The translations under genes were made by a program, and so were the position numbers. A stretch of DNA of 64,000 nt from an uncultured Prevotellaceae bacterium (lineage in GTDB: Bacteria; Bacteroidota; Bacteroidia; Bacteroidales; Bacteroidaceae): contig CAMHUI010000004.1 of the NCBI GenBank assembly GCA_946188345.1, forward strand, positions 1 to 64,000, read 5' to 3'. How positions within the stretch are numbered: position 1 is the stretch's first letter; the number at the start of each line of letters is the position of its first letter. Positions 1,440 through 44,144 of the stretch are shown here, in pieces. Under the pieces are notes generated by a model. That model was given only the letters and a program-made list of their open reading frames with translations. It was not told the DNA's origin and made no database searches.

Positions 1440-4400
1440 TTATTCGTAAATACGTTTGATCTCAGCGCCTTGATAGTAGGTCAGCAGGATTTCGTCGTAG
1501 CTGTAGCCGCGCTCTCCCATCACAGCAGCTCCAATCTGACAGAGTCCCACGCCATGTCCCCAACCGTGTCCATGCAGGTGGAAGGTCAAGGGCACTGAGT
1601 CACCTTCGGCTCCCTTGGGATAGACTTTCTGTATCTCGAAGTTACTGCTCTTCAGGTGAGAGTCAGACAAGGCGCGTCTTATTTCGAGTTCCTTGCCGAT
1701 GGTGAAGTGTCCCTTGGTGCCTTGCAGCTTCAGTTTCCAGATGCGTCCGCTCTTGCCTCGCTCCAGGGGGATGATGTCGACGATGGCTCCCAGGTCGAGG
1801 TTTAGTTTCTGCTTCAACAGGGCCTGCAGACGCTCATTGGTAATCTCTTCATGCCAGTCGTTGAAGTCCTGAGTCTCTTGGTCGTAGTCGTTGAGCACCT
1901 GTCGGATGATGCCCTCGTCGCGTGTATTGCAGAACGGGTCCTTGACAGAGACGAGATAGGGTTTCTTGATGTCTTCCCAGCAATACTGGAACTCCTCGGT
2001 CCTTCCTCCGCAGCACTTCGAGAAGCGGGCATCGCAAATATCGCCCTCGCTCATGAGGATCTGTCCGCGGGTAGCCTTCACAGCCTCAGCCACGTGCGGA
2101 TTGGCTGCACGTGTGATGCCCTGGTAGCGCTGGCAGTGGTCGTCGGCACAGACATCGAAGATGGTATGGTCGTCGCGGTCGTACCAGCGGATGAGCTCGT
2201 CTTCCTTTTTGATGAAAGAGAAGAAGCTGTTCTGTTGCTGGTCGTGCGTCTTCATGCGTTGCATCTGAGCCAGCAGCCAGCTACGCGAGATGACGGCATG
2301 GGCCTTCAGCAGTTCAAGCGACGAGGTGGCGTTCATCTCGCTGGAGATGACGCTCTGCAGGTATTGCTCAACTGGAAGGATGTTGATGGCGCAGACTTTG
2401 TTTTCTTCTACGACAAGTCGCAGCACGCCTTGGAAGGTCTGTGTCTCATGGCGTTCCCAGTGGAAGTTTACTCCAATGACGACGTCACGCAGCGAGAACG
2501 ATGCCTCGGATGCTAACGGCCGGAAGGTAAGCTCGCGGTAATGCTCTCCCTGCCAGAGTATTCCTCCTTCGAACACGCTCACCTCCTGCTCGCCCTCCAC
2601 GTGCTCGCCCTTGGCCTCGTGGGCTCCGTTCAGTGTGAAGCTGATGCGCTCACCGCTGACGATGCCGACCTTGACGTTGGGCTCCTCGCCATCGAAGAGG
2701 GCCGACTGGGTGGTCAGCACGATTTCTTCGAAGAGCGTTTGTATGCGCTGTGCGATGCTGTCGGCTTCGGGCATGCTGATGCCACATTCGGCGATGATGC
2801 TGGTGGCCTGCTCGGCAGTGATTCCACGGAAGTCTTCCTCCCGGGGTGTCACGATGAAGCCTGCCATATCGAGCGAACCGGGGCTAACCATCATCTGCTC
2901 GCGCCCTTCGCGGAAGTAGCAGTCTGGACGGTGTTTGCTGCGGGGTATGATGACAGTCACGAAGTCGTCGGCATGGCGCCATGCCAGGATGTTGTGCGAG
3001 GGTTCATCCCTGCCCTCGCCTGTGATGGCAGCACTCTGCTGGAGGGCTTTGTATAGGACGTTATACATGGTTTCGTCAGACTTCTGCGAACGGCTGACGA
3101 TGACAAATATCGGGCACAAATAGTCGCGCACCAGACCAATGAATTCACCTTCGGCCATCTGATGAATGACGTCGATGTCGCGGCTGAGCCGTGGCCAGGC
3201 ATTCTGCAGGGGCAGGATGCCACTGGTGCCTGCCTGCAGATGCATGTGGTCAGGCGCACTGGCACCGCACTGCGGGCCGTTGTAGAACACGACGAGGTTG
3301 TTGTAGCGTGTCAGCAGCCGGTGTATCTCGCCGTAGTTGCCACGGATGCGCTGTGGCTTATGCTTGGTGCTGGGGATGGTGAAGTGCATGGGAAGAATGG
3401 GGAACGGATTGACGAGCAGCTGGTAGTCGTTGTCGACCACCTTGCTGAGCTGCACCTCCGGGCGGTTGTCGGCGCAGAGGAAGCAGGGACGCTCCTTGAT
3501 GGAGACCTTGTCAATCTTCGCCCCGGTAGAGACGATGCGTGCTGGGTTCCACTGCACCCTGAGTGTCTGCTCTCCGCTGACCAGCTCGCGGCTTCTGGCT
3601 CTCAGCAGGTCGCGATAGCGCTGACGGGCATCGTCCCAAAGGTCCAGCTGGCGATCGAAGTATCTGTCGAGCGAGTCTTCGACGTGCCCGGCCGTATGGC
3701 GCTCACGGGCCTTCAGCTCCATGGTGCGCAGCCGGTCCTTGTAGGCATTGTTGGCATTCTGCCGCTCAATGCTCAAGGCTGCGTCGCTGTTGCCCTCCCA
3801 TCGGCGGCAGAGGTATAGCTCGTCGTAGATGCGACCGATGCGGTAGCGGCGCGAGAAGGCAAGCCCCATGGCATAGTCCTCTCCGTAGCTGGTGTTGGGG
3901 AACTGTATCTGCCGGGCCAGGGGTGTGAAGAAAGCCCTCGGCGCTCCGAGGCCGTTGATACGCAGGGCATTGTTGGGGCCGTTCTCGTCGGTCCACTCGC
4001 GATGGTCGATGAGTCCCGGCGGGAGCGTATTCAACTGGAAGTCGCACATGCGGTAGCTGCCGACAATCATCGCGGCTTTCTGGTCGTAGAAGGCATCGAC
4101 GATGCGTTGCAGCGTGTGGACAGATGAATAGAGGTCGTCGGAGTCAAGCTGCACGGCGAAGCGTCCGCAGCGTGTGTCGTTGATGGCGACGTTCCAACAG
4201 CCGCCGATACCCAGGTCCGTCCGCTCGGGGATGAGGTGGATGAGATGACCACCCAGTGCCTTGATTTTCTCGGTGGTGCCGTCGGTAGAGTGGTTGTCCA
4301 CCACGATGACGTTGAAGGGGAAGGAAGTCTCCTGCTGCAGCGCCGAGGCTATGGCATCGGCAATGGTCTGCACGCGGTTATAGACGGGTATGATGACAGA

Positions 4401-17650: not shown

Positions 17651-18679
17651 TCAGCCACCGTGTGCAAGGCGTAAGCCTTGTATTGCCACGGCCGTAGCAT
17701 GGCCGATGCTGCTAATGGTGCCAGTAAGACTGTTAAGGTAATGAAAGTGCTCGTATGCACTTGTAAAGTTTGGCAAATCCTCTGGCCACGGAGCAAGTAC
17801 AAGAAGCGAGCCGTGAGCACACGCCTCGTAACGGCTACGCTCGGGCTTCCAGTAGCGGCTAATAGGTTCTGCTTGCACATGAATCAGTCGAAGATGCCTT
17901 TCCAAGGCCATATTCTTGATACGCTTCTCACATTCTGAAATGCCGGAAGTGACCAGCACGTCTCCGCTTAGGGCTGCCATGATGAGGCGTTGGCTCTCAG
18001 TTTGCCAGTATTCTGTGTTTTCTGTGGGAATACCATCGGTGTAGCGGTGGAACATCACCTGGTGTTTCTCTGGCTGACGAAGAAGAAACATGTTGCCAAA
18101 GGCGCTGTAGCGTGTTCCTCCAATGGTAATGCACAACGCACGTTGGAACAAATCGGGATATTCGCGCCGCATCATGTAGCGTAGCGGATTGTCACGAAGA
18201 TAGCGCTTCCAGTTCTCCAACTGTCCGTCGCGCATCAGGATATGGTCGTTATAGTTAGGCTCAAAGAGGGGAGGACGAGACTCTGTGGCTGACGCCCCAG
18301 ACACGGTGGCTTTCAATTCCCACCAAGCACGACTGACCCCGCCATTGAAAGCACCAATGACGATGCCAAGGTGCTTGCCTTTGGACAATGTCTGATTGAT
18401 GCGGACTATCATGTGCAAATGGTCGGGCATAAGACACACCTGCCAGACATCGACCTCCGGGTAATAATGATGAATCTTAGGAACCTCGCTGTCAAGAACA
18501 GCCTGCCCAAGCACAGACGGTTTTATGTGAGGTCTTTCACCGCCAGTCTTTGTTGTACCAACAATCTCCCCAAAGACAGGAAACCGCCCGGCAACCACAA
18601 TGGTCACCTCGTATGTTCCTGGCACTGCGTAGTTGTGGCCATACATGCGTCGTGTCTGACAACTCTCGCTCATCATCAT
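17651..18679 (-). CDS. REP-associated tyrosine (IS200-like Y1) transposase
   Basis: A 342-residue protein with the HUH motif of Y1 transposases (PDHLHMIV) and a downstream tyrosine region (RYLRDNPLRYMMRREYP). It is much longer than IS200 TnpA (~150) and matches the single-copy RAYT type. RAYTs nick and rejoin single-stranded hairpin elements and scatter REP sequences. The adjoining 17.1-kb hairpin and the long palindromes at 44.2 kb are candidate targets. The gene sits between a non-coding interval and a broken restriction gene, so the position is probably an insertion site. Confidence 0.85.
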   Translation of the reverse strand: MMMSESCQTRRMYGHNYAVPGTYEVTIVVAGRFPVFGEIVGTTKTGGERPHIKPSVLGQAVLDSEVPKIHHYYPEVDVWQVCLMPDHLHMIVRINQTLSKGKHLGIVIGAFNGGVSRAWWELKATVSGASATESRPPLFEPNYNDHILMRDGQLENWKRYLRDNPLRYMMRREYPDLFQRALCITIGGTRYSAFGNMFLLRQPEKHQVMFHRYTDGIPTENTEYWQTESQRLIMAALSGDVLVTSGISECEKRIKNMALERHLRLIHVQAEPISRYWKPERSRYEACAHGSLLVLAPWPEDLPNFTSAYEHFHYLNSLTGTISSIGHATAVAIQGLRLAHGG

Positions 18680-18970: not shown

Positions 18971-21421
18971 TCACACCGCACAATACAATCTCCGTTGCAA
19001 CTCGAAGTAATGCTCACGTATGTCAGTAACAGACATCTTTAACCTTTCCTTGGCATCCCTCATAGAGTTAAACCTGATGCTGATAAAGGTCTTCAGTTTG
19101 TCTGTGCCAAGTTCCTTGAAGCCGTTGCAGGCATAGTATTCCAATATAAGGTCATCAAATTCTCGTTGCTCCTTATTCAGCGCATCAACAAACTGTTTCT
19201 TCACCAGTTCCACCCTCTTTGCCCGCTCTATGGGTGTTGAGTCATAGGCTATGTATTCCAGCACGTCGAGCAAGTCGCACTTCTGCATCTTCAGCATATT
19301 CTTCAGCAGATTTAGCTTATCTTCTGCAAAGCCTGCTTCATCAAGCGTTCTCAACAGTTGTTCGCGAGTTTCCGGGTTCGACCATTTTTCTCTCAGGTCA
19401 TCTGATCCAGAGAAGAATTCCGGGATTCTGCCAAAGAGTTTCTTCACGTATTCATCAAGACTGATGAACTCGTCGCCAAAGAATATCTTCTGCTCCCAAG
19501 TCGTTTCAAGAGAGAGTCTTCTCCCATTAGACAATTTGATATCTATCAGATTTGTCTTAGGCCCTTCACATGTGCAAGGCAGATTGCCGCATACGGGGCA
19601 AGGCTCTGGCTCTCTGAACATTCCGCCGCTACCATCTTCCTCTGGCATTGTATAACGTTTCTTCTTACAAGTGCAAGGCCAGTTGCCACATACGGGGCAA
19701 TAGGTGTCGCCATCCCACTCCGGGTCTTTGAACATTTCAGTTGCTCCCACAAAGTCATAGATGGTGAAATAATACTTCTTGTCGAACAAGCGCGTGCCAC
19801 GACCTATGATTTGCTTAAACTCCACAATGTTCTGCACAGGGCGCATCAATACGATGTTGCGCACATTGCGGGCGTCAACACCAGTACTCAACTTATACGA
19901 GGTGGTCAGAATCGTGGGCAATAGTTTCTCGTTGTCTTGGAAGGTTCGCAGTGTTGCCTCTCCCACTTCTCCGTCATCAGCCGTCACTCGCTCACAATAG
20001 TTGTTGGCTGGTCGCCGTTTGTGTTTGTTCACCATATCGCGCACTATCATGGCGTGCTTCTGTGTGGCACAGAAGATGATGGTCTTTTCGTCGGGGTCAA
20101 TCTTGTTCAGCAACTCCTGCACACGATGTTCGTCACGTTCCTTTATCTGTATTCTGCCATTATAAAAGTCCGACTCCGTATAAATCTTTTCCGGGTCCAC
20201 CTCTCCGCTCTTCACCTTATCGCCTTCCTCATACTGGTAGTCATCAATGTTACTCGTCGATATGTCCACACGGAAAGGAACAAGGAAACCGTCCTCAATG
20301 CCTTGTTTCAGCGAGTAGGTATATACGGGCTCTCCAAAGTAGGCATAGGTATTGGCATTGTCCTTTCTTCTTGGCGTAGCAGTCATACCCAGTTGATAAG
20401 CTGAGTCAAAGTATTCCATCAACTTACGCCACTCGCTTTCATCGTTGGCACCGCCACGATGACATTCGTCGATGATGATGAAGTCAAAGAAGTCGCGCTC
20501 ATACTGCATATAGTATGGCTGGTCGTTTGAGCCTTCAGGAATACCGATGCCTTGTTCCTCTGCCTTCTGCGCATTAGGTGAAGTCATCATCGTCTGGAAG
20601 ATGGTGAAATAAAGGTTGCGGGCTGTGGGGACTCTGTAGTTATTCTTTCGCAGTTCCTTGGGCGTCATGCGGCACATCGCGTCCTCAGGGAACTGGTCGA
20701 AGTCGTTGATGGCCTGGTTCGCAAGGATGTTTCTGTCAGAGATAAACAGGATTCTCGGCGCACGCTCTACACCCTTTGTCGACCACTTCGTCTGCGTCAG
20801 CTTCCAGCATATCTGGAAAGCCGTATAGGTCTTTCCCGTACCTGTCGCCATTGTCAGCAAGATGCGGTTGCGCTGCTTTGCCACTGCCTCCAGCACATTC
20901 TTGATGGCTATCTCCTGATAGTAACGAGGCTGGCGCCCGCCACTACGATTCAGCGCACACAGGTTGAACTTGTCGCGCCAAGGGTTCTCTTCAGGAAAGG
21001 TCATCTGCCACAAGTCCTGTGGCGTTGGGAAACTGTCTATATCATGTTCCTTGCTGGGGATGACATAATCACCCTTACCATTCTTCACACCCATGTCGAT
21101 AAACCATATCTCATCGCCATTGGTGCTGTAGGTGTAGCGAATATTCAGGGCATCGGCATAGAGCTTGGCTTGCCCTACACCCTCAGACACATCCTTCTCG
21201 TCGCTCTTGGCCTCAATCACGGCCAATTTGATACCCTTGTATTCCAGGATATAGTCAGCCTTCTTAGGGTTCTTGTTACCAGTAGTCGTGATGCGTCCAG
21301 GAGCTATATAGGCACTTTGCTCCACCAGTATCTTACTGCCTAGAACAATCCCCCAGCCGGCATCCCGCAGCTTGGGGTCTATCTTGTTCAGTCGGGTCTG
21401 CGCTTCGTTCATAATAGTCAA
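18971..21421 (-). CDS. hsdR: type I restriction enzyme, R subunit
   Basis: 816 residues. An N-terminal PD-(D/E)xK-like nuclease (DYILEYKGIKLAVIEAK, about 56-72) precedes two RecA-like helicase lobes: Walker A MATGTGKTYTA (191-201), DECHRGG motif II, then IGRGTRL motif VI. It is the translocating, cutting subunit of a type I system. After the helicase come two zinc-knuckle-like CPVCGNxPCTC motifs, one near CPVCGNWPCTC and a repeat CPVCGNLPCTC, an uncommon insertion. It is the last gene of the hsdM-hsdS-orf-hsdR operon, starting 3 bp after the membrane-protein gene. Confidence 0.93.
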   Translation of the reverse strand: MTIMNEAQTRLNKIDPKLRDAGWGIVLGSKILVEQSAYIAPGRITTTGNKNPKKADYILEYKGIKLAVIEAKSDEKDVSEGVGQAKLYADALNIRYTYSTNGDEIWFIDMGVKNGKGDYVIPSKEHDIDSFPTPQDLWQMTFPEENPWRDKFNLCALNRSGGRQPRYYQEIAIKNVLEAVAKQRNRILLTMATGTGKTYTAFQICWKLTQTKWSTKGVERAPRILFISDRNILANQAINDFDQFPEDAMCRMTPKELRKNNYRVPTARNLYFTIFQTMMTSPNAQKAEEQGIGIPEGSNDQPYYMQYERDFFDFIIIDECHRGGANDESEWRKLMEYFDSAYQLGMTATPRRKDNANTYAYFGEPVYTYSLKQGIEDGFLVPFRVDISTSNIDDYQYEEGDKVKSGEVDPEKIYTESDFYNGRIQIKERDEHRVQELLNKIDPDEKTIIFCATQKHAMIVRDMVNKHKRRPANNYCERVTADDGEVGEATLRTFQDNEKLLPTILTTSYKLSTGVDARNVRNIVLMRPVQNIVEFKQIIGRGTRLFDKKYYFTIYDFVGATEMFKDPEWDGDTYCPVCGNWPCTCKKKRYTMPEEDGSGGMFREPEPCPVCGNLPCTCEGPKTNLIDIKLSNGRRLSLETTWEQKIFFGDEFISLDEYVKKLFGRIPEFFSGSDDLREKWSNPETREQLLRTLDEAGFAEDKLNLLKNMLKMQKCDLLDVLEYIAYDSTPIERAKRVELVKKQFVDALNKEQREFDDLILEYYACNGFKELGTDKLKTFISIRFNSMRDAKERLKMSVTDIREHYFELQRRLYCAV

Positions 21422-21424
21422 TTA

Positions 21425-22090
21425 TTATCTATCGGAAAATAACATACGTTTACCTACTGCATAACCAGCACCCCAAAGAGTAATCCCAAGTCCTATAATA
21501 GAGGTGATTCCTTTGACAGATATTTCACTAACGACAAATGTTTCATTATTTCTATCCTCTAAATGAATACCAAACAAACCATATAAGGAGAAAAAGAGAA
21601 GGAAAGCAAAAAACAGAACAATAATTGAAACATACCAAAATTCTATTGTACGTGCTCTTTTAACTTTAATAATTTTATCCTTAATTTCCTTTTTAAACTC
21701 GTCCTCCAGTTCTTTAAACTTATATTTCGTCAAAACGTAAGCAACGTCTTTGATATTTCTATCGCTTTTATCCACTATGCCATATAATGATTCTTCAAAA
21801 TACTCGGGTGTTGTCTCCATAATTTCTTTAACTTTAGCCCGAGTTAAGGCTTTATAATGCTCTCCATCTTTCAAATGGGTTCGTTTCAAATACAATTTGT
21901 ATTGATCTTCTATTCTATCTGAAATTATAGCAGGAACCATATCCTTTCTAAGTTTAGCCACTTTAGTAACATAATAAAGGATATATGCAATCTGCTCTTT
22001 GGGAGGTTGGTCGTCGAAGTTTATTATGTCAAAATAATCTTCTAACGTAAGTATGATTTTTATATCTCTTTCCATAACTGTACTATTCAA
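21425..22090 (-). CDS. two-helix membrane protein embedded in the type I RM operon
   Basis: 221 residues, lower in GC than its neighbours. The first ~145 residues are charged, helical and probably cytoplasmic. Then come two transmembrane segments (FWYVSIIVLFFAFLLFFSLYG, about 151-171, and a second near 190-212) joined by a short polar loop. No known domain is recognised. The start overlaps the hsdS stop by 8 bp and the stop is 3 bp before hsdR, so it is translationally coupled with the RM genes. A membrane effector or helper of the RM system is possible; nothing in the sequence proves it. Confidence 0.75.
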   Translation of the reverse strand: MNSTVMERDIKIILTLEDYFDIINFDDQPPKEQIAYILYYVTKVAKLRKDMVPAIISDRIEDQYKLYLKRTHLKDGEHYKALTRAKVKEIMETTPEYFEESLYGIVDKSDRNIKDVAYVLTKYKFKELEDEFKKEIKDKIIKVKRARTIEFWYVSIIVLFFAFLLFFSLYGLFGIHLEDRNNETFVVSEISVKGITSIIGLGITLWGAGYAVGKRMLFSDR

Positions 22091-23219
22091 AAACTTGTCG
22101 TAATATTGCTTGTTTCAATGCGTCGCACTCCTGAAACATCTTGTCGAAGTTCGCTTGGAGGCGGTCAACTTTGGATTTCAGAGAGTCGAGAGTGGCAACG
22201 ATGGATTGCTGCTCGGAGAGAGGGGGCACAGGAATGCTAATCGCTTTTAATGCTGGGGCGTTTGTATGAACAACCTTCAGTTTCGTTTTACCCAATCCCT
22301 TTTGTCTTATGGCTTCTGGAGTAGTCAGAGCATAAGCAAGAAACTTCGGATTTTGATTATGTTTCATGCAAATAATATCGCCACCACAGAGGCATTTTTC
22401 ATTACCCAAATAAGCTATCGTCTTACCTATATCCTCTACGCTTTCACCTGTTATTGCAAATAATAAATCACCATGTTCGAAATACTTTGGAGAAGATATG
22501 TATTCTTCTTTTGTGTGCGAAACACAAGTATCAAATCCAACATTATAAGTCGTGTATATTTCTCCATATCTAACACAGGGCGTTCCTTCTTTTGTTACTT
22601 GGTCACGTCTTATTCCACAACCTCTGTACATATCAGTTGCTAAATCACCAAGCGTCTTTTCTTCCCACCCTTCTTTTGGTTCCATCATTTCTTTGAGTGA
22701 TGCTTGGAAGAGGGCTTTGGCTTCATTGAGTGCTTTTTCTGCATTAGCCTTCATTGCATCTATCTTTGCAAAAGCAGAGTCCAGATAATCTACGATGGAT
22801 AGCTGCTCGGAGAGAGGTGGGATGGGAACGGAAATGGAACACATTTTCTCTTGATTTAATTTAGGAACAGTTACACCGGTTATATAACTTTGCAGATTTG
22901 AATAGTTCAGGAAATAAATTAGCCAATAATCACTTATTACCTCTCTCCTAGGTCTTAAGGCATGAGCGTGATTATTCACCCAACTTTTACCTTCAATGCG
23001 GTATGCAGAACATTCTCCTGCTCCCCATTTTGCGCCATCTTCCCCTAATAAAACAAGAGGCTCATCGAATATATAATCCTTAACATAATCTAGCAACCCA
23101 GTTGCACCATAATACGGAATTGCACCGGATTCCCTTTTAGATTTTGTAATCGGCTTCCTTCGTGAATCAAGAATGTCGCAACATTCCTTTATTGTCAATA
23201 ATTCCCACCCTTCTTTCAT
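22083..23219 (-). CDS. hsdS: type I restriction enzyme, specificity (S) subunit
   Basis: 378 residues with two target-recognition domains, each followed by a conserved helical spacer: IPPLSEQLSIVDYLDSAFAKIDAMK near 165 and VPPLSEQQSIVATLDSLKSKVDRLQ near 345. HsdS chooses the bipartite DNA target for methylation and cleavage. Its ATG overlaps the hsdM stop (ATGA). The recognition domains are AT-richer than hsdM, as is usual for exchanged TRDs. No inverted repeats for phase-variable shuffling were seen. Confidence 0.93.
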   Translation of the reverse strand: MKEGWELLTIKECCDILDSRRKPITKSKRESGAIPYYGATGLLDYVKDYIFDEPLVLLGEDGAKWGAGECSAYRIEGKSWVNNHAHALRPRREVISDYWLIYFLNYSNLQSYITGVTVPKLNQEKMCSISVPIPPLSEQLSIVDYLDSAFAKIDAMKANAEKALNEAKALFQASLKEMMEPKEGWEEKTLGDLATDMYRGCGIRRDQVTKEGTPCVRYGEIYTTYNVGFDTCVSHTKEEYISSPKYFEHGDLLFAITGESVEDIGKTIAYLGNEKCLCGGDIICMKHNQNPKFLAYALTTPEAIRQKGLGKTKLKVVHTNAPALKAISIPVPPLSEQQSIVATLDSLKSKVDRLQANFDKMFQECDALKQAILRQVFE

Positions 23220-24673
23220 TTCACCATCTCCATGATTTCGTTGATAAGCGTCTGATTCTCGCTATTGAGGGCAAGGATAGTTTCAGCGATCTCGCTGGGG
23301 GTGCGCTCGTCCACTTCCTCTACTTTGTTAGGGTTCTTAACGCTCAGGTCGCAACTGTCATCGAGGGTGCTGACATCGAGTGTCCATGAATGTTCGCTCT
23401 CTACCTTTGTTTTCTGCAAAGTAAGGAACTCCTGCATATCAGCCTCCGTCAATGGCTGCGTCTTGGTGAAGTGCTTATCTACCTGATAGTACCAAATCTT
23501 CTGCGTCGGCTCGCCCTTGGTGAAGAACAAAACAACCGTCTTCACGCCAGCACCCGTGAACACGCCACTGGGCAGGTCGAGAATGGTATGAAGATTACAA
23601 TTCTCCAAAAGCATTTTTCTTATCGCGCTGGCATCACCATTGCTCAGGAAGGTGTTCTTGATGACTATGCCAGCACGACCGCCAGCCTTCAGCATCTTGA
23701 TGAAGTGTTGCATGAACATATAGGCTGTCTCGGAGGTGCGAATTTCAAAGTTCTGCAACACCTCACCACGCTCATTGCCGCCAAAGGGTGGATTGGCAAG
23801 GATGACGTTTTTGCGGTCGCTCTCCTGTATCTGACTGAGATTCATGGCAAGGGTGTTGCCATGCGTGATGTTGGGGGCAGAAACGCCGTGGAAGATCATG
23901 TTCATCGTGGCGATGATATAGGGCAGTCCTTTCTTCTCCTTGCCAAAGAAGGTGTTGTGCTGCAACGTCTCGTGGTCTTTCACGCTCTTGATCTTATCCT
24001 TCATGTAGAGGAACGCCTCGCAGAGGAAACCAGCCGAACCACAGGCAGGGTCATAGACCGTCTCGCCTATCTTTGGGTCAACCACCTTGATGATGCTGCG
24101 AATCAGAGGGCGCGGAGTGTAATACTCACCACCATTGCGCCCTGCATTGCCCATACGCTGGATATTGCTCTCATAAAGAACGGTCATTTCGTGCTTGTCC
24201 TCGGCACTTTGGAAGTGGAGTTCATCAATCATGTTGATAATCTCACGCATGTTGAAGCCTGAGCGAATCTTGTTGTGCAGTTCTCCAAAGATTTCACCTA
24301 TCTTATACTCCAGCGAATCGGTAGTGGTAGCCGTATTCTGGAAGTCTTTGAGGTAGGGAAAAAGCTTCTGGTCAACAAATTCCACCAGGTCGTCGCCACT
24401 CATGGCATTGACAGTATCGAGCACCATTCGGCCCGTCTGCGGGTCGCGCTTCTTGGGTGTTGCCCATTGGCTCCAGCGATAGAAGCCAGAAACCAGTCGC
24501 TTGTAGGACTTGCCATCAAGTTCGGCTTCCTCCTCACGTTCCGTTTCCAGATCGTCGAGGTACTTCAGGAACAGCATCCACGATTTCTGCTCCAAATAAT
24601 CAAGTTCACTACCACACCCCTGCTCCTTCCACAGGATTTGGTCAATAGCCTTGAATGTGTTTTCGTATTTCAT
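23216..24673 (-). CDS. hsdM: type I restriction-modification N6-adenine methylase, M subunit
   Basis: 485 residues with an N-terminal HsdM helical domain and a class-gamma N6-adenine methyltransferase core: SAM motif I VYDPACGSAGFL (about 207-218) and catalytic motif IV NPPFGG. With HsdS it methylates the target. The gene opens the operon and is preceded by a ~350-nt untranslated leader that holds the structured RNA, unusually long for an RM operon. Confidence 0.95.
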   Translation of the reverse strand: MKYENTFKAIDQILWKEQGCGSELDYLEQKSWMLFLKYLDDLETEREEEAELDGKSYKRLVSGFYRWSQWATPKKRDPQTGRMVLDTVNAMSGDDLVEFVDQKLFPYLKDFQNTATTTDSLEYKIGEIFGELHNKIRSGFNMREIINMIDELHFQSAEDKHEMTVLYESNIQRMGNAGRNGGEYYTPRPLIRSIIKVVDPKIGETVYDPACGSAGFLCEAFLYMKDKIKSVKDHETLQHNTFFGKEKKGLPYIIATMNMIFHGVSAPNITHGNTLAMNLSQIQESDRKNVILANPPFGGNERGEVLQNFEIRTSETAYMFMQHFIKMLKAGGRAGIVIKNTFLSNGDASAIRKMLLENCNLHTILDLPSGVFTGAGVKTVVLFFTKGEPTQKIWYYQVDKHFTKTQPLTEADMQEFLTLQKTKVESEHSWTLDVSTLDDSCDLSVKNPNKVEEVDERTPSEIAETILALNSENQTLINEIMEMVK

Positions 24674-24749
24674 TTATCTCTTGTTTTAGTCAGCATACAG
24701 ACTATATCTTCAGGCTTGCTTACAGGTAAAGACCAAGAGACCTCAGGAC

Positions 24750-24779
24750 ACAAAAGAAGCGCGAGTCATGGCTCTTCTC
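24750..24779 (-). terminator. terminator-like hairpin at the end of leader RNA A
   Basis: On the minus strand, GAAGAGC and GCGCTTC pair (one mismatch) and are followed by TTTTGT. The hairpin is imperfect, about 75 bp before the hsdM ATG, and corresponds in position to the stronger terminator of leader B. It could act as an attenuator. Confidence 0.4.
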
Positions 24780-25025
24780 TTGAATCTTGAGGTCCTCGGA
24801 ATGTACCTGTAACACTAGATATAAGTCATGCCCGCGCTATACGCACGGGCATCGGCTGACTTACTCAAAGTGTTACATCATTGAAATTTCCGAGGTTTCA
24901 AGATTCTCTGAATAAATAGCTGATGCTATTGTTTTAACCAACGAAAATCATACCGCCACCCTGCGCTCAGGGATTCCACGCCTGATGTGTGAGGTCGGCG
25001 CCGTCAACGACGATTCAGCGATACT
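24750..25025 (-). ncRNA. structured leader RNA, copy A (upstream of hsdM)
   Basis: Minus-strand RNA from a likely TSS near 25025 to a terminator-like hairpin at 24779-24750. In order, it has a 5' AACAAGTATCGC-GAA end, a small hairpin (CGTCG/CGGCG), a CCCTG-AGCG-CAGGG hairpin followed by GGCGGTATGATTTT (24972-24941), an AATAGC/GCTATT hairpin and a long hairpin. The long hairpin is closed by TTCCGAGG...CAAGATT arms (24905-24888 with 24801-24783) and capped by the ATGCCCGTGC/GCGCGGGCAT stem. Copy B shares the 5' end, the core and the capped stem, with compensatory changes. It may be a cis-regulator or a free RNA. I know no named family that fits. Confidence 0.7.
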
Positions 25026-25031
25026 TGTTTG

Positions 25032-25039
25032 CAAAAGTA
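25032..25039 (-). promoter_or_regulatory. -7 box of leader RNA A
   Basis: TTCGTACTTTTGCAAACAAG on the minus strand fits the TAnnTTTG consensus (TACTTTTG) and is almost identical to the promoter of leader B. A convincing -33 element was not found. Confidence 0.55.
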
Positions 25040-25078
25040 CGAAATAATTCGGATTCAACACAGAAAAAAGGGAAAAAT

Positions 25079-25234
25079 GTTGAATTTCATTCTCCGTTTT
25101 CTCGCCATGGCAAAGTTCAAACAAGTTTGGCTCTGCTCATCTGGCTTAACGAAAAGGTTGAATTTCATTCTCCGTTTTCTCGCCATGGCAAAGCTCAAAC
25201 AAGTTTGGCTCTGCTCATCTGGCTTAACGAAAAC
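25079..25234. repeat. two near-identical 78-bp tandem copies
   Basis: Copies start at 25079 and 25157 (GTTGAATTTCATTCTCCGTT) and differ at two bases. They lie between the leader A promoter and the tmRNA promoter. The unit is open in several frames, giving repeated track ORFs on both strands, but none looks like a real gene. Confidence 0.85.
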
Positions 25235-25299
25235 GTTCATAATTTTTCGATGTTGAGTGGGTGTTTCTCTGAGAAAATGTTAAATTTCGGGGGCTATTG

Positions 25300-25355: not shown

Positions 25356-25753
25356 GGGGTTGACTGGATTTGACAGCGGGTTGAGATGGTACGTAAGCAC
25401 GCGGAGCCTCGGAGGCTATCTCCTTAAACGAAGCTTTCAGAAAATTAATTGGCAACAATGAGTATGCTCTCGCTGCCTAATCGAAGTATAGTAGATTACT
25501 GGCTTTATTCCTTCACCAGGTGAGGGAACGAGACGTCGCTCCAAGGATGTTTTTCCGAATCTGAGGGTTCAGCGGCGCAGACAAATCGGGAATAGTCCGG
25601 CAGGTGCCTCGACGGCCGGGCGAAACTTTAGAGGATAAGGCTGCGGTTGGTGGTCCAGGTCTTGCCACAGCACGAAAACCAAAGGCTGGAATAAGCGTGT
25701 AGAAAGCGTATGGTTTCCCTGTTTGGACGCGGGTTCGACTCCCGCCAGCTCCA
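25356..25753 (+). tRNA. ssrA: transfer-messenger RNA (tmRNA)
   Basis: The 5' GGGGTTG pairs with the 3' CAGCTCC to form a seven-base-pair acceptor stem. The T-arm GCGGGTTCGACTCCCGC is intact, and CCA is only partly encoded. The mRNA-like part encodes the tag GNNEYALAA ending TAA (25451-25480), close to the GENNYALAA-type tag of Bacteroidales. tmRNA rescues stalled ribosomes and tags nascent proteins for ClpXP. It is placed under tRNA because no tmRNA type is available. Confidence 0.93.
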
Positions 25754-25761
25754 CAAAAAGA

Positions 25762-41281: not shown

Positions 41282-41316
41282 GCCAAACTAAAACACAAAA
41301 CATCATCTATTGAAAA

Positions 41317-41404
41317 GTAATAGATGATTTATTACTGAGTAATAGATGATTTATTACTGAGTAATAGATGATTTATTACCGAGTAATAGATGATTTATTA
41401 CTTT
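41317..41404. repeat. 22-bp palindromic tandem array (copy C)
   Basis: Four units AGTAATAGATGATTTATTAC start at 41317, 41339, 41361 and 41383, exactly 22 bp apart. Each unit is an inverted repeat AGTAAT-N9-ATTACT. There are no spacers. It lies just after a terminator and shares period and palindromy, but not sequence, with the arrays at 5.5 and 57.4 kb. Confidence 0.85.
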
Positions 41405-41604
41405 GCAATAAATAATCTTTTGCATCTTGATTACCACCTTCTCACCCCATCTCCGTGAAGAAATCATCACATCATCAGCAACCGACAACAACCTTATCTG
41501 CATAAAGACGCCGCATGATTGCCATAGAGCCCCTACTGCCATAGACAATCATCTTTTTTTCCTAAAAATCCCATCTATTTTTTCTCGATTCACATTTTTC
41601 TTCG

Positions 41605-41612
41605 TACCTTTG
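41605..41612 (+). promoter_or_regulatory. -7 box of leader RNA B
   Basis: TTCGTACCTTTGCAACAAG fits the consensus (TACCTTTG) and is nearly identical to the promoter of leader A. Confidence 0.6.
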
Positions 41613-41619
41613 CAACAAG

Positions 41620-41873
41620 TATCGCCGAAATGCCTAAAAGGCATCAGCCACGGCAGAGTCCTTGAACGCAGGGGGGCGGTATGATTTTAGTGGAACTATA
41701 ACAAGCGTTTGCTGTTATTCGGAATTGTCCTAAGAATCTCGCAAATTCAAAGAAACAAAAACCGATGAATAAGTTGCAAGCGTCTGTGCGTTAAGCATGG
41801 GCGTGACTTATCTGGTTTTTGTAGGCATGCGAGAGCCTTTAGGACATGGATGAGAATCGTCCATGTCTTTTTT
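41620..41873 (+). ncRNA. structured leader RNA, copy B (upstream of the EcoRI-family methylase)
   Basis: About 254 nt from the inferred TSS to a terminator. It has the 5' AACAAGTATCGC-GAA end, an ATGCC/GGCAT hairpin, CCTTG-AACG-CAGGG followed by GGCGGTATGATTTT (41660-41691), an ATAACA/TGTTAT hairpin and a long hairpin. The long hairpin's arms are TGTCCTAA (41726) and TTTAGGACA, TCTCGCA/TGCGAGA, and ACAAAAACC/GGTTTTTGT, and it is capped by CGTCTGTGC/GCATGGGCG. Compared with copy A the sequence differs but pairing is kept. It could attenuate the downstream methylase operon or be released as a free RNA. Confidence 0.7.
41843..41873 (+). terminator. intrinsic terminator at the end of leader RNA B
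   Basis: A perfect 8-bp GACATGGA/TCCATGTC stem with six following Ts lies about 60 bp before the methylase start. Its first four bases (GACA) also pair with the 5' arm of the long leader hairpin, so the two structures compete. Confidence 0.8.
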
Positions 41874-41931
41874 GTGCTCTATGCGAAGCCTACTCCTCCG
41901 AAGATAAGCAATACGCACTAATGTGTAACGT

Positions 41932-43008
41932 ATGGCTAACAAAAACCTTAATGCTGCTAAAACGGCAAAGAAAGATGAGTTTTATACTCAACTGACAGAC
42001 ATCGAACGGGAATTGCAACACTATTGGAAGCACTTCCGCGACAAGGTAGTATTGTGCAACTGCGACGATCCCTATGAGAGTAATTTCTTCAAGTACTTTG
42101 CACTTCGGTTCAATCAGTTAGGACTGAAGAAACTGATTTGCACATGCTACAACGGTTCGCCCGTCCAAGGCAACGAACTCATGATTGACTTCGGCGACTT
42201 TTCCGAAGAACCCAAAAAGATAGCCTATAAGGTAGAGATAACGGAAGTAAAGGACCTGAATGGCGATGGAGCAGTAGACTTGTCTGACGTTCAATACCTA
42301 CTCCAAAACGACAAAAACGTTTGTTCTATCCTCAAGACTGGTGACTTCCGCGACCCAGAGTGCATCGAACTCCTGAAACAGGCCGACATCGTTGTAACTA
42401 ACCCACCGTTCTCCTTGTTCCGAGAATACATCGGACAACTAATGGAATACGATAAGAAGTTTTTAATAGTAGGAAACCAAGGAGCTATAATATATAAAGA
42501 AATATTCCCAAGCGTAATTAACAATAAAATTTGGCTTGGGTATGGCTTTAAAGGAGGTGCCGCCCATTTCGTATCTCCTTACGAAGATGTAGCGACAGCC
42601 ACAGACCACAAAGCTGGTATGATAAGAGTTTCAGGAGTGCATTGGTTCACAAACATGGAAATACCAAAAAGGAATGAAGAAATTGACTTAGTTTGTAGAT
42701 ATTCACCAGAAGAATATCCGAAATACGATAATTATAATGCCATTAATGTAGATAGAACACAAGATATTCCTTGCGATTATGATGGAATTATGGGAGTTCC
42801 TATAACATTCCTTGACAAATATAATCCCAATCAATTCGAAATAGTATGGCAAGCAAGTGGAAATACAAAAGCTTCCGCACCAAGTTCTGTCCTTAAAGAA
42901 ATTGGTTATAATGCACATCCTGATGACCGTGGTGGGTGTGGAGTCGTGAGAGGCAAAAGGCAATACAGCAGAATATTAATTCGCAATAAACATCCCAAAA
43001 AGACTTGA
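41932..43008 (+). CDS. EcoRI-family adenine-specific DNA methyltransferase
   Basis: 358 residues of the M.EcoRI family (N-terminal NAAKTAKKDEFYTQLTDIERE, catalytic NPPF at 157-160). It should methylate N6-adenine in a specific DNA site. Residues 108-124 read DLNGDGAVDLSDVQYLL, an EF-hand/dockerin-like calcium-loop pattern, in a DNA enzyme. The gene is coupled to the DUF262-HNH gene, so it is probably the modification half of a restriction-like pair. The second half is AT-richer than the first, which hints at transfer. Confidence 0.88.
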   Translation: MANKNLNAAKTAKKDEFYTQLTDIERELQHYWKHFRDKVVLCNCDDPYESNFFKYFALRFNQLGLKKLICTCYNGSPVQGNELMIDFGDFSEEPKKIAYKVEITEVKDLNGDGAVDLSDVQYLLQNDKNVCSILKTGDFRDPECIELLKQADIVVTNPPFSLFREYIGQLMEYDKKFLIVGNQGAIIYKEIFPSVINNKIWLGYGFKGGAAHFVSPYEDVATATDHKAGMIRVSGVHWFTNMEIPKRNEEIDLVCRYSPEEYPKYDNYNAINVDRTQDIPCDYDGIMGVPITFLDKYNPNQFEIVWQASGNTKASAPSSVLKEIGYNAHPDDRGGCGVVRGKRQYSRILIRNKHPKKT

Positions 43009-43022
43009 CTGCAGGAAAAAGA

Positions 43023-44144
43023 ATGACAATCAAGCAAATAGAAGTGACCGTTGGTGACATCACCAAGGGTTATGTGAATAACGATGAACAAGGTGTTCGT
43101 GGCTACGATGGTTTATTGGACATCCGCCCACCCTACCAGCGAGAGTTTATCTACAACGAAAAGGAACAGCAGGCAGTCATCAATACCGTACTGCAAGGCT
43201 ATCCGCTGAACGTGATGTACTGGGTAAAGCGAAGTGAGGATGCCGAGTGCCCCTACGAAGTGATGGACGGGCAGCAGCGTACGCTCTCGCTCTGCGAATA
43301 TGTAGACGGAAAATTCGCCTACGAGTTTAAGAACTTTTTCAATCAGCCCGAAGATATTCAGAAGCGCATCCTCAACTATCCGCTTACCATCTACGTCTGT
43401 GAGGGTGAAGCATCAGAAAAACTGGAGTGGTTTAAGACTATCAACATTGCAGGCAAGCCGCTGAACGACCAAGAGATAAATAATGCCATCTATGCCGGTC
43501 CCTTCGTAAGCGATGCCAAGCGCCACTTCTCAAAGAGCAACAGCGGGGCAGCCCGTTTGGGCAAAGACCTGGTCAACGGAACTCCCATCCGACAGGACTT
43601 TCTGAAGGTGGCATTACAGTGGATAGCCGACCATGAGACTCGGTGCGGCCATCGGCAGACCATAGTAGGCTATATGGCCGACCACCAGCATGACCCTAAT
43701 GCCAACAACCTTTGGTCTTACTTCCAAACGGTGCTCAACTGGGCCATCACCAACTTTGACATGAAGAAATTCAAGAAGATAATGAAGGGCTTGGACTGGG
43801 CTTGGCTGTACGACAAGTATGGTTCGGAGACTTTAAATACTGCAGCTCTCGGGAAACGCATTTCCGAACTGATGCGCGACAGCGAAATACAGCGTCAGGC
43901 AGGTATCATACCATACGTTCTGACTGGCGACGAGCACTACCTCGACTTACGGGCCTTTCCTGAAGACATTAAGTTAAAGGTATGGGAGCAGCAAGGTCAT
44001 AAGTGCGCTATCTGCGGCAAGGTGTTTGATTATGAGTTTATGGAGGGCGACCACATCACTCCTTGGCGTGAAGGTGGCCGAACTGTTATAGAGAATTGCC
44101 AGATGCTGTGCCGCGAATGTAACAGGAGAAAGGGAGCCAAATAA
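43023..44144 (+). CDS. DUF262/ParB-like and HNH endonuclease protein
   Basis: 373 residues from the ATG at 43023, which has AGGAAAAAG in front; the track's TTG at 43005 is less likely. The N-terminal DUF262 (GmrSD-N-like) region has RPPYQREFIYNEKEQQAVI and a DGQQRTLSL motif. The C-terminal ~50 residues form an HNH nuclease (CAICGKV, GDHITPW, N-C-R-CNRRKG). DUF262 proteins can use nucleotides to trigger nicking. Next to the EcoRI-family methylase this looks like the nuclease half of a restriction or anti-phage pair. The function is not demonstrated. Confidence 0.82.
   Translation: MTIKQIEVTVGDITKGYVNNDEQGVRGYDGLLDIRPPYQREFIYNEKEQQAVINTVLQGYPLNVMYWVKRSEDAECPYEVMDGQQRTLSLCEYVDGKFAYEFKNFFNQPEDIQKRILNYPLTIYVCEGEASEKLEWFKTINIAGKPLNDQEINNAIYAGPFVSDAKRHFSKSNSGAARLGKDLVNGTPIRQDFLKVALQWIADHETRCGHRQTIVGYMADHQHDPNANNLWSYFQTVLNWAITNFDMKKFKKIMKGLDWAWLYDKYGSETLNTAALGKRISELMRDSEIQRQAGIIPYVLTGDEHYLDLRAFPEDIKLKVWEQQGHKCAICGKVFDYEFMEGDHITPWREGGRTVIENCQMLCRECNRRKGAK

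Follow-up and report, generated by a model that had tools for sequence, protein, structure and literature searches.

The 64-kb window that we analysed (the whole stretch of DNA, from an uncultured Prevotellaceae bacterium) contains two structured RNAs, leaders A and B, each lying directly upstream of a restriction-modification operon. Judging from comparative genomics, these are members of a large family, absent from Rfam, of structured 5'-leader RNAs of the Bacteroidales, about 250-320 nt long, that probably act in cis as attenuators or switches, most often of restriction-modification operons.

From the promoter to the end of the 5' domain, leaders A and B can be aligned. The window has two exact copies of the promoter TTCGTACYTTTGCAA, at 25043-25029 (-) and 41601-41615 (+), where 0.01 would be expected, and both RNAs have the same 5' end (AACAAGTATCGC(T/C)GAA), the CCYTG-ARCG-CAGGG hairpin, and an identical 14-base core, GGCGGTATGATTTT, at 24957-24944 (-) and 41675-41688 (+). 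The apical stem differs in sequence between the two leaders but its pairing is kept. All of these similarities had been described in the initial annotation, and we found each of them again, along with the placement of leader A before a type I restriction-modification operon and of leader B before a methylase-nuclease pair, which we assign to an EcoRI-type methylase and a GmrSD/HNH protein. The claimed extent of leader A (24750-25040) was too short, as the RNA runs from about 25030 to the start codon of hsdM at 24673 (-); leader B runs from about 41614 to the start of the methylase at 41932 (+). The folding energies of the two leaders, relative to shuffled sequences, have z scores of -6.4 and -4.5. 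The promoter by itself is an ordinary Bacteroidales promoter, because an unrelated gene elsewhere in the same genome has a near-identical one. We also considered a possible third copy of the leader in this genome: there is a promoter match before an aminotransferase-like gene, and the RNA is absent.

All of leader A is on the minus strand. Its promoter, TTCGTACTTTTGCAA (25029..25043), is an exact match within the window and includes the Bacteroidetes -7 box, TAnnTTTG. In the 5' domain (24929..25030), helix P0 (GTATCGCTG at 25024-25016 with TGGCGGTAT at 24958-24950) encloses the hairpin CCCTGAGCGCAGGG (24972-24959). The 3' domain (24677..24928) matches our covariance model R1, described below, at 62.3 bits. 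Along it lie the 5' strands of helices P1 (24927-24908) and Pb (24905-24898), strand A (24895-24888), a central hairpin (24866-24821), strand B (24801-24791), the 3' strand of Pb (24790-24783), and a terminator-like hairpin (AGAAGAGC-CATGACTC-GCGCTTCT, 24751..24778) that is followed by TTTG, a weak U-tract. This hairpin is borderline: it was missed by a standard scanner and found by our own scan. The 3' strand of P1 (CTGAAGATATAGTCTGTATGCT, 24692..24713) is just 5' of the hsdM start codon at 24673. HsdM (N6_Mtase, HsdM_N; 23216..24673) is the first gene after the leader, and the rest of the operon (18971..23219) encodes HsdS (23219-22083), a 221-amino-acid membrane protein (22090-21425) without any match in Pfam or NCBIfam, and HsdR (21421-18971), all on the minus strand.

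The surroundings of this operon have some features of their own. Behind hsdR, an open reading frame at 17651-18679 (-) has a sub-threshold match to the REP-associated tyrosine transposase NF047646 (E = 7e-10). On the other side, a tmRNA gene (25356-25756 (+), tag GNNEYALAA) begins about 310 nt from the promoter of leader A and runs in the opposite direction. Between the two is a 78-bp unit with 2.1 repeats and 96% matches (25074-25237). The type I operon is directly beside the tmRNA gene, which is possibly an insertion site.

Leader B is on the plus strand, and its promoter (TTCGTACCTTTGCAA, 41601..41615) is again an exact match within the window. The 5' domain (41614..41698) consists of P0 (GTATCGCC at 41619-41626 with GGCGGTAT at 41675-41682) and the hairpin CCTTGAACGCAGGG (41660-41673). 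The 3' domain (41699..41937) scores 239.7 bits with R1, but leader B is a member of the training set for that model. Its elements are the 5' strands of P1 (41705-41722) and Pb (41727-41734), strand A (41737-41744), the central hairpin (41767-41812), strand B (41827-41837), and the 3' strand of Pb (41838-41845), which is overlapped by the base of a terminator-like hairpin (AGGACATGGATGAGAATCGTCCATGTCTT plus TTTTG, 41841..41874). The initial annotation had noticed a long terminal hairpin in both RNAs. In leader B this is a terminator-like hairpin of 13 pairs with a U-tract, called by the standard scanner, while the version in leader A is weaker. Behind the hairpin is strand C (41876..41893), in which GCTCT can pair with AGAGC of strand B and GCCTAC with GTAGGC at 41821-41826. 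The 3' strand of P1 (CCGAAGATAAGCAATACGC, 41898..41934) has an alternative pairing at its end, ATACG (41911-41915) with CGTAT (41929-41933), which covers the start codon (41932-41934). The first gene after leader B encodes an EcoRI-type adenine methyltransferase (41932..43008 (+); PF13651, E = 9e-152), and behind it is a gene for a GmrSD_N (DUF262) and HNH nuclease (43005..44144 (+)), which has a weak, sub-threshold NCBIfam match to IscB via its HNH domain. About 200 nt upstream of the promoter, a 22-bp palindromic unit, AGTAATAGATGATTTATTACTG, is present four times (41316-41402).

Homologues are not limited to these two RNAs. A blastn search of 200 genomes of the family with leader B gave strong matches in many genera. 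We then built the covariance model R1 from 17 aligned relatives of leader B that have clear structure. Leader A, which is outside the training set, was found by R1 at 62 bits (E = 1.8e-14), and therefore leaders A and B are homologous over the 3' domain too, that is, along their whole length. Full-length copies were found by the model in 154 of the family's 399 genomes (21 of 30 genera) and in 53 of 247 genomes of the order, and a draw from the phylum gave matches in 7 of 248. Genomes often have several copies, with up to six among the matches listed; the complete genome G233 has three. An independent scan of GTDB genomes with the pattern of the central hairpin alone gave at least 120 stretches; when R1 was run on 81 loci (80 of these stretches and one viral contig), the RNA was present in 80. 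One stretch, from Providencia, lacks the RNA according to R1 and was set aside as a chance match of the hairpin pattern. The carriers include Segatella copri strain Indica, Prevotella disiens, Paludibacter, a Porphyromonas cangingivalis MAG, and Bacteroidales bacterium KHT7. Some GTDB records duplicate genomes of the first set (e.g., L248 and L106).

The domain of leader B had no match in the phages or plasmids that we searched, and scans of viral contigs with the hairpin pattern found a single contig in one case and none in the other. That sole viral copy (L324, on IMGVR_UViG_3300042547_001222, 2045-2266 (+)) is followed by a gene for a putative HSDR_N-type restriction protein, by the look of its N-terminus. 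In another genome (G153), three contigs (L042, L050, and L052) have similar leaders before LRR-type secreted proteins. Both in G153 and in other genomes there are contigs whose ends fall within or close to the RNA, a pattern that a multicopy element would give.

Scattered copies, and contigs that end inside the RNA as if it were multicopy, might suggest a mobile or catalytic RNA (a group I or group II intron, a HEARO or omega-type RNA, or a retron RNA) that is found before these genes by chance. Also, AAGATATAGTC in leader A resembles what we take to be a segment of the group I core. We consider this explanation very improbable. No intron, HEARO, or retron family of Rfam matched the leaders at E up to 10 or the homologues at E up to 1, no common endonuclease or reverse transcriptase adjoins the RNA, and the stretch AAGATATAG is one strand of P1. 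As to the individual candidates, a group I intron was rejected as covariance models detect no catalytic core in the leaders at E up to 10; the HEARO or omega RNA of IscB, as Rfam gives no match and the downstream genes are mutually unrelated; and a retron RNA, as no reverse transcriptase is among the downstream families shown. More generally, the initial annotation did not recognise the RNA as a named family, and neither does Rfam. Across the whole window, Rfam 15 gives the tmRNA only, with no family at gathering score for either leader; at E up to 10, leaders A and B have only chance matches (E of 1.9-7.7), and at E up to 1, six homologous loci have only sub-threshold matches to microRNAs.

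The alignments indicate that the family is conserved as a structured RNA. Among 99 aligned copies, 37 of 44 pairs have double-sided changes, and in the helix formed by strands A and B (A:B), each of the seven inner pairs is kept in every copy, though most of them vary widely. In an independent set of 80 copies, 92.3% of cells are paired, as compared to 74.8% if columns are shuffled and 31-46% with slid partners. Covariation in that set is very strong (0.452, versus 0.150 when shuffled and about 0.05 when slid), as the comparison of just two copies had led the initial annotation to expect. On all three points that could have told against that annotation (further homologues, covariation, and a match to a known family), the outcome was in its favour. 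The partner-swap and column-shuffle controls remove relatedness only in part, but near-duplicates were dropped and the two sets agree. On the sense strand, there are 521 G-U cells versus 30 A-C cells. An excess of G-U over A-C is expected only if the molecule acts as RNA on the sense strand, so we conclude that it does.

In copies L038-L167, strand A of helix A:B (columns 54-61 of alignment A3) draws on a small set of sequences that recur across distant copies, including CCUGAGAA, CCUAGGAA, UCUCGCAA, UGUAGGAA, and CGUAGGAA. We considered whether each genome maintains different A:B sequences to avoid cross-talk, and rejected this: 3 of 43 pairs are identical versus 3.9 expected (P = 0.47).

The arrangement of the RNA relative to promoter and gene is also conserved. 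Of 165 copies, 134 have a TAnnTTTG box at a distance of 40-160 nt upstream of the 3' domain, versus 10 in shuffles. The 5' domain has a median length of about 59 nt and is closed by P0, although some copies look unstructured; across 116 leaders, P0 scores 7.22 versus 5.84 +/- 0.11 with swapped partners. A hairpin with an ANCG loop is present in the 5' domain of 46 of 165 copies (2.5 expected). P1 closes the 3' domain, inside which are Pb, A:B, the long central hairpin, and finally the hairpin Pg. From the beginning of the 3' strand of P1 to the start codon, the median distance is 37 nt (interquartile range 34-41). Because R1 includes start-codon columns, the offset of -5 from the end of the model is partly built in, but the distance from P1 is not. 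This arrangement, with a conserved structured RNA on the sense strand between promoter and start codon, is that of a cis-regulatory leader. A short upstream open reading frame after GGCGGTATG (MIFVG* in leader A) does not appear to be a conserved leader peptide: in about 15 homologues judged by eye, its frame and start codon vary.

What kinds of genes lie behind the RNA? About 75-80% of the first downstream genes are restriction-modification genes or related, and these are of unrelated types. In 94 neighbourhoods from Bacteroidaceae, this is so for 66 of the 85 genes directly behind the RNA and for 9 of 9 where the called frame begins further on. In the GTDB set of 67 first genes, homology identifies 47 as being of restriction type, and Pfam class or similarity adds three. 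The downstream families include EcoRI_methylase with GmrSD, HsdM/S/R, MmeI, Eco57I/TaqI_C, SNF2/PLD helicase with Eco57I methylase, N6_N4 with ResIII, and D12, C5, PglX-like, and MAD2-like methylases, so that type I, II, IIG/IIL, and III systems, BREX/MADS-like methylases, and others are represented. By position, restriction genes account for 47 of 71 first genes, 19 of 52 second genes, 4 of 33 third genes, 0 of 22 later genes, and 0 of 61 upstream genes. Because the association is positional, with a high rate for the first gene and none upstream, it does not reflect mere residence in defence islands.

The initial annotation tied the RNA to DNA modification, and this link is strong in Bacteroidaceae and their relatives but is not universal in other Bacteroidia. 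In other families of Bacteroidia, only 7 of 26 genes are restriction genes, and most of the rest encode secreted, surface, or unknown proteins. The exceptions overall include acyltransferases (Acyl_transf_3, MBOAT), BspA-type LRR proteins, SIR2-like proteins, and ion channels. We therefore view the family as a broader class of leaders whose main use is in the restriction systems of gut lineages. Nor is a trigger that is specific to restriction or infection implied, because the genes downstream outside of Bacteroidaceae and their relatives are mostly for secreted or unknown proteins. The mix of genes points to no metabolite or ligand.

The initial annotation had left it between a cis-regulatory and a trans-acting RNA. 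A promoter and a terminator-like hairpin do frame a self-contained unit of about 250 nt, and genomes carry several copies, as might be expected of a small RNA that acts elsewhere, on mRNAs, on a protein, or on the neighbouring enzymes. We find this doubtful, and a cis-acting leader fits far better, because conservation does not end with the terminator-like hairpin but reaches the start codon: strand C, the P1 3' strand, and the fixed spacing between P1 and the gene all lie past the hairpin. Also, the downstream enzymes are mutually unrelated, which makes it unlikely that one of them is a shared protein partner of the RNA.

The initial annotation overlooked the conserved terminator-like hairpin and the helices that compete with it. 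Pg with its U-tract satisfies the definition of a terminator in 78 of 99 and 65 of 80 copies, versus about 7 in shuffles. We tested three overlaps between helices by swapping partners among the RNAs. First, the extension of the terminator's base into the 3' strand of Pb scores 2.34 versus 1.22 +/- 0.155 for swapped partners and 2.61 versus 1.57 +/- 0.152 (near-duplicates removed); none of 2000 swaps reached the observed value in either case. Second, strand B can also pair with strand C, behind the terminator (6.71 versus 5.60 +/- 0.132 and 5.87 versus 5.07 +/- 0.128, near-duplicates removed). The longest B:C helices have up to 11 pairs (L106 and L167), and forced B:C was at least as stable as forced A:B in 54 of 72 folds, these 72 copies having been pre-selected as those whose B:C stem has six pairs or more. 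A:B is unbroken in evolution, yet B:C is often as stable there, which would fit if A:B is the earlier fold, made during transcription, and may be replaced afterwards. In leader B, B:C overlaps A:B by a few bases only, and the two helices may partly coexist. Third, the 3' strand of P1 can pair with bases around the start codon (5.91 versus 5.26 +/- 0.147 and 5.56 versus 5.05 +/- 0.16; 5.0 versus 4.64 +/- 0.11 in a stricter first version of the test). This is the smallest of the three effects, significant on average in both sets but modest, and the pairing is short in leader A.

That third pairing, which exceeds swapped partners, and the median of 37 nt between the 3' strand of P1 and the start codon would suit a purely translational switch or an enhancing leader, in which the RNA would uncover or mask the start codon and the hairpin with the U-tract would be only a structural element. 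Bacteroidetes make little use of Shine-Dalgarno pairing, which would also fit, and hairpins with U-tracts can be something other than terminators. But about 80% of copies keep the hairpin with its U-tract, which also competes with Pb, and a purely translational device would need neither, so we think it rather unlikely that control is only translational. At the level of sequence, the family has the terminator hairpin, U-tract, and competing helix of a transcription attenuator, with leader A as a borderline example.

If the RNA is a cis-acting attenuator, then transcription would start at the TAnnTTTG promoter, and the 5' domain (P0 and the ANCG-loop hairpin) and the central domain (Pb, A:B, and the long central hairpin) would fold first. 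The terminator-like hairpin would form next, with its lower stem borrowing bases from the 3' strand of Pb. If Pb is held, then the terminator would be shortened and the polymerase would read through; if Pb is open, the terminator would be complete and transcription would end some 60-100 nt short of the start codon. Once the polymerase has read through, strand C could take strand B from strand A, and the 3' strand of P1 could pair with its 5' partner or with the start-codon bases, which would add translational control. From the sequences, we infer that transcription proceeds as drawn here, that termination occurs, that the switch has this direction, and that a ligand, a protein, or a physiological state is sensed. 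Candidate triggers are infection, entry into a new host, or the general growth state; the last is a candidate because it would fit the genes for secreted proteins.

The silencing, delay, or raising of restriction-modification operons is known for a few single systems, via proteins or antisense RNA. These include C proteins and the antisense RNAs of EcoRI and Eco29kI (PMC3874152). As is proposed for the leaders, those RNAs control a restriction-modification operon, but they are antisense and act on one system each, whereas the leader is on the sense strand and is common to type I, II, IIG/IIL, III, and other systems. Riboswitches are not mentioned in that review of restriction-modification regulation (PMC3874152). 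Attenuation riboswitches and other cis-acting leaders resemble our family in having a long structured 5' leader, a helix set against a terminator-like hairpin, an adjoining gene start, and use in many operons; they differ in that our family has no match in Rfam, no hint of a metabolite, and mainly unrelated restriction-modification systems downstream.

Other structured RNAs from Bacteroidetes and gut microbiomes have also come from comparative genomics (Weinberg et al. 2010, PMC2864571; Fremin and Bhatt 2021, PMC8040213). Their main texts contain no mention of restriction or methyltransferase genes, though an unnamed entry in a supplement is possible, and those of their RNAs that are deposited in Rfam do not match the leader family. 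Nor does the 2017 survey of 224 RNAs, compared via Rfam only. AbiF-type abortive infection (PMC12373285) is similar in that RNA-based regulation is reported to be linked to a phage-defence gene, but it involves one protein family in one host. We found no prior description of the leader in Rfam or in open-licence papers, while a listing under an opaque name is possible, as supplements and many journals were outside the search.

The most far-reaching idea is that the leader is a shared sensor, which would place the unrelated phage-defence systems scattered over a cell's chromosome, and some surface-modifying genes, under one signal at the level of RNA. The signal of such a defence-wide riboregulon might be some metabolite or state that shifts upon infection or upon entry into a new host. 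We offer this as a tentative speculation that is unlikely but conceivable. One structured leader that serves type I, II, IIG/IIL, and III systems, BREX/MADS-like methylases, and other systems across the Bacteroidales would give a dominant group of gut bacteria a common layer of control over their defences. Once the trigger is found, it would reveal the signal that sets the level of restriction, and this may bear on why many Bacteroidales are difficult to transform.
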